A DNA stretch of 64,000 nucleotides, from contig OZ020484.1 in assembly GCA_963971405.1 (NCBI GenBank), positions 6,820,001 through 6,884,000 on the forward strand, read 5' to 3'. The notes below the pieces were generated by a model. It saw only the letters and a program-made list of their open reading frames with translations. It was not told where the DNA came from and did no database searches. This DNA comes from Psococerastis gibbosa (taxonomy: Eukaryota; Arthropoda; Insecta; Psocodea; Psocidae). Positions 58,456 to 63,630 of this stretch are shown piece after piece; positions within the stretch are counted from its first letter, which is position 1, and each line of letters begins with the position of its first letter. A program made the translations under genes and the position numbers.

Positions 58456-58559
58456 ATTATTTTATTTAATTTGGTTTTGTAAAAATCTCCTTTAATATGT
58501 AAATATTTTCATGACTTTTAAAGAAGATACATACGGTATAGTATTAGTATAGCCGGCCG

Positions 58560-58800
58560 CCTTACCAAGTTGAATCCAGCGGACCAGAGCAGGTTCAAAG
58601 ATGCAGATAACTTGGTAGTGTGCACATCAGTGCCGGTAGGGAAACATGATAGGACTTGTCCTGGTCACCTCCGAACTAATCGTGTGACTTTACTGTGTTT
58701 CCCAAGTGGTTCGGAATCCACTATAATCAGGAGGTCCCCTGTCCTATGGGCCCACACCGTGACCTGGGACTGTGTACAACCATACTACTACTACTACGGT
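58560..58800 (+). mobile_element. Unclassified dispersed repeat with TAC tail
   Basis: AAGTTGAATCCAGCGGACCA through GTTCGGAATCCACTATAATC, ending CTACTACTACTAC. It is read through by the 146-codon frame at 58570, whose first half is therefore repeat-derived. Confidence 0.75.
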
Positions 58801-59450
58801 ATAGTAGGCTATGTAAGCCTAAAGCCATTGAATTCCCATAGAAATGGACTTGTATTGCGAATACCCCGACATAACACAGCTTTATATGGTAGTTCTTTTT
58901 TTGTAAATGTCTGCCGCCAGTGGAACTCCCTAGATAAGGAAATTAGATCGCAGCCAAAGATTCGTGGGTTCAAAAGCCAGTTACTGAAAAAATTACTAGG
59001 AACAGAATAGGTTTAGAATAAGAATACTGTCTAGATATTTACTGTATGTGTTTTTTTTTTACGTCACGTCACTTTAGAATAAGTTCTTTTTATGCATACT
59101 TATAATTGTAGAAAGAATGAGACGCAACTGATCCACAATAAAATATATTAAACGTGACCGGTTTCGGTAAAAAACCATCATTTTACCGAAACCGGTCACG
59201 TTTAATATATTTTATTGTGGATCAGTTGCGTCTCATTCTTTCTACAATTATAAGTATGATGAAGTTCCACGAAGTCACTTTGGAGAATCTCACTATGATA
59301 CTTTTTATGCATTGTTAGAATAAGATTGTTTACGTTAAGCCTATGTATTTTGTAAATTGTATTGTTCTTGGACGTGGGTTAGGCAGAAAAAGACTTTCTA
59401 GTCTTAAGTCTCGCCCCGTAAATATAAGACGTTAATTATTATTATTATGC
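58801..59450 (+). pseudogene. LINE C-terminus and 3' UTR
   Basis: The last about 60 codons before TAG at 59008-59010 read NSHRNGLVLRIPRHNTALYG then SSFFVNVCRQWNSLDKEIRS, the standard C-terminus of Jockey/CR1-type LINEs (SFF....R.WNSLP.EIR). The 3' UTR continues to an ATTATTATTATT tail near 59436-59447. It is interrupted by the 59098-59300 insertion. Confidence 0.85.
59098..59300. mobile_element. Penelope-like inverted unit inserted in LINE 3' UTR
   Basis: The inverted arms 59098-59168 and 59189-59260 appear nearly perfect (ACTTATAATTGTAGAAAG...CTTTCTACAATTATAAGT). The element is flanked by a 12-bp direct repeat CTTTTTATGCAT (59086-59097 and 59301-59312). ACCGAAACCGGTCACG next to the loop matches the GAAAC..GUC half of the minimal hammerhead typical of Penelope-like elements, but the CUGAUGA half reads AAAATGA. 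Confidence 0.7.
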
Positions 59451-61258: not shown

Positions 61259-61296
61259 TATAAAACATAATGTTATAGGGAGAAATTAATCAGTTC
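61259..61296 (+). promoter_or_regulatory. TATA box and initiator of the secreted-peptide gene
   Basis: TATAAAA lies at 61259-61265. The arthropod initiator TCAGTT lies at 61290-61295, with its A at 61292 as likely +1. The TATA box is then at about -33 to -27, a normal spacing. The 5' UTR would be 39 bases to ATG 61331. Confidence 0.7.
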
Positions 61297-61330
61297 TTAC
61301 TTTTTGTGGACGAGTAAACAACGCTTCACA

Positions 61331-62553
61331 ATGTTCAAGGTAACTTTTTTTTTTAAACAATTTGCCACTATTAGGTTCGGTTTTAAGGGTTAACTATTTA
61401 AGAGGACATTGATCCCGCGCAAAGTCAAGGGCGGATTTTGCCTCCAATTTAGGGGGGGGGGGGTCAGCCAGTCAGCGGTCAGGTTCAGTGGATTATAACA
61501 TTAAAAAACATAATTATTTTTAATTCCCCCTGTAAACCCATTGTTATCTAGTGTAAGTTAATTTTTTTTTGGGAGGGGGGGGGGGGGGGGTACCGGACCC
61601 TCTGACCTCCCCCTAAAATCCGCCGTTGCGGAAAGTGATATGGCGTTGGAAACATTGATGAGCGTAAAGCCGTTAATGAGATACCGTACTGAGATGTCAA
61701 TCACGTCTTGTACAATCAAAGGAAATGTTCCCATATACAGTATACAGGGGGATATATGGGCCGCTCAAATGGAACGTATGCACATTTAGGCCACTTTTAA
61801 ACCCCCCTCCCCTGTAATAAATGGTAAGCAAATTACAACCCCTCCATGCTTGGAGCACCCCACATAATTTTGAACATTGTTAGGGGAGGAAACAAACATT
61901 ATACATTAAATTATTAAAAAATGAAGTAGTTTTTATTGTTCAGAGCTTCTGCCCATGAACTGTCAAATATTGACTTTTTGTTATATTACGAAGCCAACCT
62001 AGCGGAGTAAGGGCTGTAAAGCCCTCTCTTACACTCAACTAGGAAGGTACGGGACCGCCTGTTTTACATGCCCTCCGAAGCATCAGTCCTGTTCTGGGTG
62101 TCCCTGGTTGAGAGCCCCAAACTTGTCATATCTCCGGTGATCTTTCTTCTCAATGTAACTTTTGGCCTCCCTGGTGGTTTTCTTCCTTGTATCTCCCTGT
62201 CAATTACTCTTTTGACTGGGCGGTTTTCGCCTCTACGTAGTACGTATCCCCACCAGTTCAGCCTCTTTTCTCTTAGCTTTTCTTGCACGTCACGGGTTCC
62301 AATATTATTATGCCTTAAATCTTAATTTCTACGTTGGTCTCTCAGCGTTACACCGCAGGATCTTCTTAGCATTCGCATTTTATTACTTTTTGATCCTATT
62401 TTCAATTTTGTTTTTCAGATTTTCATGCTCGTGGTGGTACTAGCTGTTTTAACCATGGCTTCAGCTACCCTGCCAGTCTACAAGTACTACCCAGGCTACG
62501 TTCACTATAACTACCCTCTGCCTTACTACTACCACTATTACCCACTCAAATAA
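61331..62553 (+). CDS. Small secreted tyrosine-rich peptide, two exons
   Basis: Exon 1 (61331-61339) encodes only Met-Phe-Lys and ends at the donor AAG|GTAACT. The intron (61340-62418) ends TTTTTCAG, and exon 2 (62419-62553) continues in phase 0 to TAA. The 47-residue product starts MFKIFMLVVVLAVLTMASA, a textbook signal peptide with likely cleavage after ASA. It leaves a 28-residue mature peptide with 11 tyrosines, 5 prolines, no cysteine or acidic residue, and lysine at the C-terminus; a characteristic stretch is PLPYYYHYYPLK. An MFK/MK first exon split from the signal peptide is a classic layout of arthropod cuticle and small secreted protein genes. A structural cuticle or other extracellular peptide is a guess; no family is recognised. 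TATA box, initiator, splice sites and poly(A) signal all agree. Confidence 0.82.
61426..61628. mobile_element. hAT miniature in the peptide gene intron
   Basis: It starts CAAGGGCGGATTTTGC and ends AAAATCCGCCGTTG. The flanks CGCAAAGT (61418-61425) and CGGAAAGT (61629-61636) match at 7 of 8. There are two G runs inside, and the termini resemble those of 53408-53561. Confidence 0.88.
61974..62083 (-). mobile_element. tRNA-SINE 3' half in the intron
   Basis: It reads GACTTTTTGTTATATTACGA, GCCAACCTAGCGGAGTAAGG and CATGCCCTCCGAAGCAT. It stops where LINE sequence starts, so the SINE was truncated or joined there. Confidence 0.82.
62064..62390 (-). pseudogene. LINE C-terminal fragment in the intron
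   Basis: The minus strand reads MQEKLREKRLNWWGYVLRRG, ENRPVKRVIDREIQGRKPPG and RPKVTLRRKITGDM. This is the C-terminal W.G.V.RR...R...GR...GRPK signature of a LINE reverse transcriptase polyprotein. The frame is intact for 74 codons but lacks the catalytic domain. It shares a family with the minisatellite at 45272-45719. Confidence 0.9.
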
Positions 62554-62586
62554 AGTCTACTCAGAAGAAAATAACCCTATAATAAA
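62549..62586 (+). terminator. Poly(A) signals of the peptide gene
   Basis: AATAAA at 62549-62554 overlaps the stop codon (AAA-TAA-A). A second AATAAA at 62581-62586 lies 28 bases past the stop and is the more likely one used. Confidence 0.65.
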
Positions 62587-62675
62587 CAAATAAATAAATA
62601 GTGACTTTTTCTTCCCTTCGTAACGAGCCAAACCGCGGCGGAGACTCATTCGTTGTTAATGCGACTACTGTATCA

Positions 62676-62880: not shown

Positions 62881-62934
62881 AAGTATGCTTTCAGAACGAC
62901 TACAGCCTATCATCCTAGATTCTGCTAATTCTTC

Positions 62935-63035
62935 AAATAAAATATTTATATATTTATATATTATATTTTTTATATTATATATATATATATTATATTATAT
63001 ATAAAAAATACATATATATATATATATATATATAT
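62935..63035. repeat. AT-rich TA microsatellite
   Basis: Long runs of TA and TATAT interrupted by short T and A runs. The reading frame passing through it is low complexity. Confidence 0.9.
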
Positions 63036-63359
63036 GGTGGGATCTCCTATATAAAACTATTGTGATAGGTGGTAGGTTTCGTCCCACGATCATTTGTAAA
63101 GTCTATATTGGAGCGGTGAGACATTCGAGCGAGCTAAAAATATTTTGTTAAATTCTGGTACGTTTTTTCAATAGCTGGCCATAGGAAGCGTCGCATCAGG
63201 TGGGCCCTGGATTCAGTAAAACATTTATAGCGCTTGAATGTCCCATCGCTCCTATATCGAGTTCTAGTTTCAGCAAGGAGATTTTGGTATAGCTGTGCCA
63301 TTCCTTATCGAGGCTTTCCAAGCGATGATCGGACCCGCTCTTAGGCTGTTCCAGCCGCC

Positions 63360-63630
63360 CGCCATACCAAGTTGAATCCAGTGGACCAGAGCAAGTTCAA
63401 AGCTGCAGATAACTTGGTCGTGTGCACAGTGCCGGTAGGGAAACATGGTAGGACTTGTCCTGGTCACCTCCGAACTAATCGTGTGACTTCACTGTGTTTC
63501 CCAAGTGGTTCGGAATCCACTATAATCAGGAGGTCCACTGTCCTATGGGCTAGCGTAGGGCAGTCAAGTCGGGGTCGCGCTATGGGCCCAAATTCGTTAT
63601 TAACCCGACGAACACTACTACTACTAGGCT
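63360..63630 (+). mobile_element. Unclassified dispersed repeat with ACT tail
   Basis: AAGTTGAATCCAGTGGACCA, TCCTGGTCACCTCCGAACTA and GTTCGGAATCCACTATAATC, ending ACTACTACTACTA. It is very close to the 58560 copy, so probably young. The frame 63372-63656 is repeat sequence. Confidence 0.8.

Follow-up and report, generated by a model that had tools for sequence, protein, structure and literature searches.

The candidate gene and its predicted product

The elements of a compact two-exon gene follow one another on the forward strand of the window, the 64-kb stretch of DNA analysed here (C1:6820001-6884000, in a genome of 409 Mb). A TATA box (TATAAA, 61259..61264) stands 72 bp 5' of the ATG and, counted from start to start, 31 bp from an initiator of the TCAGT type (TCAGTT, 61290..61295), which on reading the sequence occupies the same place as TCAGT in all 13 genes of the cluster described below. 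The coding part of exon 1 (61331..61339, ATGTTCAAG) comprises the three codons ATG TTC AAG, encoding MFK, and runs directly into a gtaact donor. The phase-0 intron of 1079 nt (61340..62418) leads from this donor to a pyrimidine-rich acceptor ending in ttttgtttttcag (cag), the last base of which is 62418; long poly(G) runs lie within it, at 61450-61600 of the window. Exon 2 (62419-62553, 135 nt, phase 0) encodes the remainder of a signal peptide (IFMLVVVLAVLTMASA, 62419..62466), recognized from its translation by a simple hydrophobicity and cleavage rule, then a mature peptide (62467..62550) and a TAA stop codon (62551..62553). A poly(A) signal, AATAAA, follows at 62581..62586, with further copies at 62589 and 62593 and an extra one at 62549 that overlaps the stop codon.

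The predicted spliced product, MFKIFMLVVVLAVLTMASATLPVYKYYPGYVHYNYPLPYYYHYYPLK, has 47 residues, of which by inspection the first 19 form the signal peptide and the other 28 the mature part; cleavage was set by eye after A-S-A, and the simple computed rule cut two residues earlier. Tyrosine makes up 39% of the mature peptide (11 of 28 residues), which contains no cysteine and only 1 Gly, 2 Lys and 2 His. The original prediction had placed a TATA box, an initiator, a 9-nt exon, a donor and acceptor, a phase-0 junction, a stop codon and AATAAA at this locus, and on re-reading the sequence each was found at its assigned position; its description of the mature peptide as about 40% tyrosine and Cys-free is likewise borne out. 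Its further assertion that no single open frame reveals the gene was too strong, as an ATG-started frame at 62425-62553 covers residues 6-47 (42 aa). Other Tyr-rich frames in the window, at 62919-63062, proved to be a TA-rich simple repeat and were rejected.

How far such an arrangement departs from chance depends on which of its elements are taken together. When both strands of the 64 kb were scanned for the full plan, under rules fixed after the candidate had been seen, one complete candidate emerged, compared with none in 60 order-3 Markov sequences. The same scan found a TATA box with a short first exon once in the real DNA against a Markov mean of 1.65, which is no rarer than chance, and an acceptor with a signal-like exon 2 twice, against 0.57 in the Markov sequences. 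The weight therefore rests on the combination of elements.

A cluster of genes with the same plan

Analysis of the flanks, covering 80 kb before and 120 kb after the window (264 kb in total) and then 40 kb more (304 kb), shows the candidate to be the edge member of a cluster of one gene type and not a lone oddity. Low-stringency tblastn together with a splice-and-signal scan of the 264 kb located 12 more genes with the candidate's plan on both strands of C1:6,884,536-6,973,801, the first starting about 0.5 kb past the end of the window. Compared with the candidate by tblastn they score weakly (E 0.02 and worse), and a higher-ranking hit of this search, a poly-Tyr stretch at C1:6805119-6805743, was set aside as a simple repeat. 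The 13 cluster genes, the candidate included, were chosen by eye from the scan output; where alternative first exons were available (two each for 6896311 and the candidate, three for 6973652), the one with the usual TATA/TCAGT spacing was taken.

The plan is common to these genes. TATA and TCAGT lie 31 bp apart in 12 of the 13, the candidate among them, and 32 bp apart in the remaining one, and in the 12 neighbours the TATA box is found 63-89 bp 5' of the ATG. Every neighbour has a first coding exon of 12 nt (encoding MYKL, MYKF, MYKI, MFKI or MFKL) followed by gtaagt, and its intron, of phase 0 and between 745 and 2753 nt long, interrupts the signal peptide. The products, 54-151 residues before processing, carry a signal peptide, are Tyr-rich and Cys-free, and also contain much Ala, Ser, Pro and Gly. 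Against this background the candidate has the sole 9-nt first exon and, with gtaact, the sole donor other than gtaagt. A close poly(A) signal is no cluster trait: for 9 of the 13, inspection of some 150 nt next to the stop found no A[AT]TAAA. By its TATA box, TCAGT initiator, 9-12-nt MFK/MYKx exon, phase-0 intron, signal peptide and Tyr-rich Cys-free product, the candidate belongs with its neighbours, and the two-exon micro-gene model originally proposed, whose plan is common to 12 neighbouring genes, is well supported.

The promoter and first exon by themselves single out this region. A scan of both strands of the 304 kb for the promoter with a short first exon, under a rule that was written after the neighbours' promoters had been seen and is thus not blind, but that uses nothing of exon 2, returned 15 sites, all with exons of 3-4 codons and all within 6,881,331-6,970,971. 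Fourteen of these begin with MYK or MFK, and they correspond to the candidate, the 12 neighbours and the first exon of a shortened copy whose exon 2 lies at 6929386; the one remaining site (MNY) is probably a chance hit. No site was found in the 141 kb preceding the candidate. For comparison, 40 sequences generated by an order-5 Markov model of this DNA held on average 0.975 sites with exons of any length (maximum 4) and, against the 15 real sites, 0.225 sites with exons of 3-4 codons (maximum 3).

These counts bear directly on the reading in which separate signals have fallen into line by accident and no gene is present. Single signals are indeed common in such AT-rich DNA, with 71 TATAAA on one strand of the 64 kb, and the scan of the window, with its one TATA-plus-exon pair against 1.65, lends this reading some substance. 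The plan held in common with 12 neighbours, the outcome of the promoter and first-exon scan and the codon usage described below all argue against it, and we regard it as the most improbable of the explanations weighed here, which were treated as mutually exclusive.

The cluster also contains copies in differing states of preservation. The coding sequences at C1:6922708 (+) and C1:6939108 (-) are one base apart, a difference in exon 1 that separates MYKI from MFKI, and their acceptors read cag and caa, respectively; the copy with caa may use another splice site or may be inactive. The shortened copy lies at C1:6929386 (-), and a C-terminal fragment of the cluster family at C1:6932473 (+). When one neighbour protein was searched against the genome at E up to 0.1, it matched 11 places, namely 10 in the cluster and a weak one (E 0.008) at C1:30.9 Mb.

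Divergence, codon usage and the intron repeat

To describe the family we aligned 11 of the 13 cluster proteins (alignment A1), omitting 6896311, with its 151-residue product, and 6939108, which is near-identical to 6922708; removal of the candidate left 10 neighbours (A2). The A2 consensus, MYKLVIVVLALxAVASAQxIASPYAYSG...SYLYK, describes a family of small secreted peptides. With hhalign, the candidate matches this neighbour profile at E 5.6e-5 (probability 66) over 28 columns that span the signal peptide and the first mature residues. As signal peptides resemble one another in any case, a match in this region is weak proof of common descent. The mature part alone gave E 0.4 over 1 column against the neighbours and does not align with their mature sequence (ASPYAYSG...SYLYK). 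Judged from these comparisons, promoter, exon plan and a similar signal peptide are common to the candidate and the cluster, and the candidate's mature sequence is its own.

Both the whole candidate protein and the exon-2 DNA found only themselves in the 409-Mb genome, with no second copy. For the candidate, a Pfam scan with E as high as 10 yielded no family, and neither NCBIfam (a prokaryote library) nor the PDB yielded anything significant; the best PDB match was an enolase at E 0.41. With E allowed to reach 1, the Pfam family PF22861 (GEO12453p1-like) is matched by eight of the 11 A1 proteins, the candidate not among them, and the best E-value is 1e-5. Of nine proteins scanned singly, five match the family, all under the curated cut-off of 32.2 bits (the highest score is 27 bits); the candidate has no match here either. 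A search of the genome with PF22861 gave no match at E<=0.001, but neither did its 14 control genomes, so this negative carries little weight. The cluster resembles this family, which is presumably named after a fly protein, in size range and signal peptide. With the gene plan and the initiator, this resemblance suggests that the DNA comes from an insect. In the literature searched, no mention of 'GEO12453p1' was found, and among the matches listed for small cuticle or secreted peptides rich in tyrosine there was no paper on the candidate gene.

The composition of the mature part speaks to a further alternative, a neuropeptide-like precursor that is processed to a signalling peptide. Its size and signal peptide would suit such a role, and small Tyr-rich secreted insect proteins have borne neuropeptide-like names; the mature part, however, has neither a dibasic cleavage site nor an amidation Gly and is of low complexity, which makes this reading highly improbable.

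Codon usage sets the frame apart from background. Among 20,000 background back-translations of the same protein, only 7 reached the candidate's fit to the codon usage of its 12 neighbours, where the neighbour preferences include near-duplicate genes and the background is the surrounding region. Its tyrosines are encoded by 9 TAC and 2 TAT codons, against 8460 and 13369 in the region. Within the cluster this fit is nevertheless the lowest of the 13, with a log-likelihood ratio per codon of 0.004 compared with 0.145-0.644 for the others. For selection, dN and dS were computed on two neighbour pairs of equal length only: the first gave dN 0.020 and dS 0.122, so that synonymous change exceeds amino-acid change, and the second has one difference, which changes an amino acid and is uninformative on selection.

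The intron harbours a high-copy dispersed repeat, identified by genome search, at 62084..62380. At least 46 match rows were obtained, including the window's own place, with 40 of 5619 candidate places scored and identities of 81-89%; two matches continue to 62403, two short ones extend in the other direction as far as about 61982, and several partial copies stand in a row at C15:34067778-34068935. The three minus-strand frames of the repeat have no Pfam match, and on visual inspection it resembles a piece of a retrotransposon. Elsewhere in the window, a stop-to-stop frame of 162 codons at 58522-59007, also without a Pfam match, resembles by eye the end of a retrotransposon reverse transcriptase, and DNA similar to this frame occurs near 63400 (about 63400-63560).

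The repeat, which ends 38 bp short of exon 2, and a donor that reads gtaact where the 12 neighbours have gtaagt are the main grounds for considering that the candidate is a decaying or recently inactivated cluster member, in which promoter and frame persist while expression or efficient splicing has been lost. The lowest codon fit of the 13 points the same way, and decay does occur in the cluster, as seen in the shortened copy at C1:6929386 and the caa in place of the cag acceptor at 6939108. Yet the candidate retains an undamaged frame, start and stop, its splice dinucleotides and promoter spacing are preserved, and its codon usage is still far from background. On balance we consider decay unlikely.

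Proposed role and comparison with known systems

Taken together, these observations lead us to posit that the candidate is probably a genuine gene of two exons that encodes a small, secreted and likely unstructured Tyr-rich structural peptide of the insect cuticle-protein type, strongly diverged at the edge of its 13-gene cluster. We read it as a cuticle-type peptide because its plan is usual in insect cuticle genes and because of its likeness to the low-complexity gene clusters of Drosophila. Transcription would begin at the TATA/TCAGT promoter, and splicing of the 1,079-nt intron would join MFK to the remainder of the 19-residue signal peptide. Following cleavage after ASA, the 28-residue peptide would be secreted, most likely from epidermal cells, and incorporated into an extracellular matrix, be it cuticle, a cuticle-like lining or eggshell, where its tyrosines may stack on chitin or become oxidatively cross-linked. 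The sequence elements, the open frame, the codon bias and the plan held in common with the neighbours are observed here; expression and each of these later steps, including splicing, secretion, tissue and cross-linking, are inferred.

An unlikely alternative is that the candidate is a specialised product of the cluster, such as an epidermal defence peptide or a small diffusible molecule of the dityrosine or quinone type that cross-links cuticle or eggshell; the mature part of an ordinary cuticle-type gene would then have been replaced while promoter and signal exon were kept. Under the preferred reading, a cuticle-type structural peptide, the candidate belongs to a known kind of gene and stands out chiefly through its small size and high tyrosine content, representing for cuticle biology an extreme case with 28 mature residues, 39% Tyr and no Cys. 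It illustrates how a promoter and a split signal peptide can lead from raw sequence to a gene of 47 codons. A search for promoter and micro-exon singles out a cluster of small secreted-peptide genes of a sort that may escape homology searches and length cut-offs.

Among known systems, the nematode nlp/cnc peptides of the nlp-29 cluster are, according to extracts of the source, likewise small, secreted, Tyr-rich and clustered (PMC2453101), a likeness that suggests an epidermal antimicrobial peptide acting in the manner of these Gly/Tyr-rich peptides and not as a structural component. In contrast to the candidate, with its one mature Gly, the nematode peptides are Gly-rich in those extracts (PMC2453101). 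The candidate has no Gly repeat and little charge (1 Gly, 2 Lys and 2 His in 28 residues), and Ala, Ser, Pro, Gly and Tyr abound in its neighbours, a composition frequent among cuticle proteins. An antimicrobial role appears quite unlikely to us.

The CPR cuticular proteins of insects offer a parallel to the gene plan under the preferred, structural reading. In the portions of PMC2259329 drawn on here, 86% of the Anopheles CPR genes with introns are split in the signal peptide, first coding exons measure 3-36 nt (median 12), and TATA and INR are found in 93%. The candidate shows this plan, which is usual in CPR-type genes and not defining for them, and is like them in its TATA box and initiator, its signal-peptide intron, its short first coding exon and the scarcity of Cys in the product. 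Unlike them, it has 28 mature residues, compared with 87-837 in Anopheles as given in the same portions (PMC2259329), and the R&R consensus (PF00379) is absent from its 47-aa product in a Pfam scan at E up to 10.

The low-complexity secreted proteins of Drosophila (Cornman 2010; PMC2932725, cited from excerpts) differ from the candidate in being usually Gly- or Pro-rich where it is Tyr-rich, and GYR/YLP-like motifs are a feature of that set. As described in those excerpts, they are clustered, nearly Cys-free, poorly alignable and without Pfam domains, and chitin contact and cross-linking are named among possible roles of conserved tyrosines. The likeness to the cluster studied here extends over arrangement in gene clusters, a signal peptide, biased composition, near absence of Cys from the mature proteins, lack of a recognised Pfam domain and poor mutual alignment.
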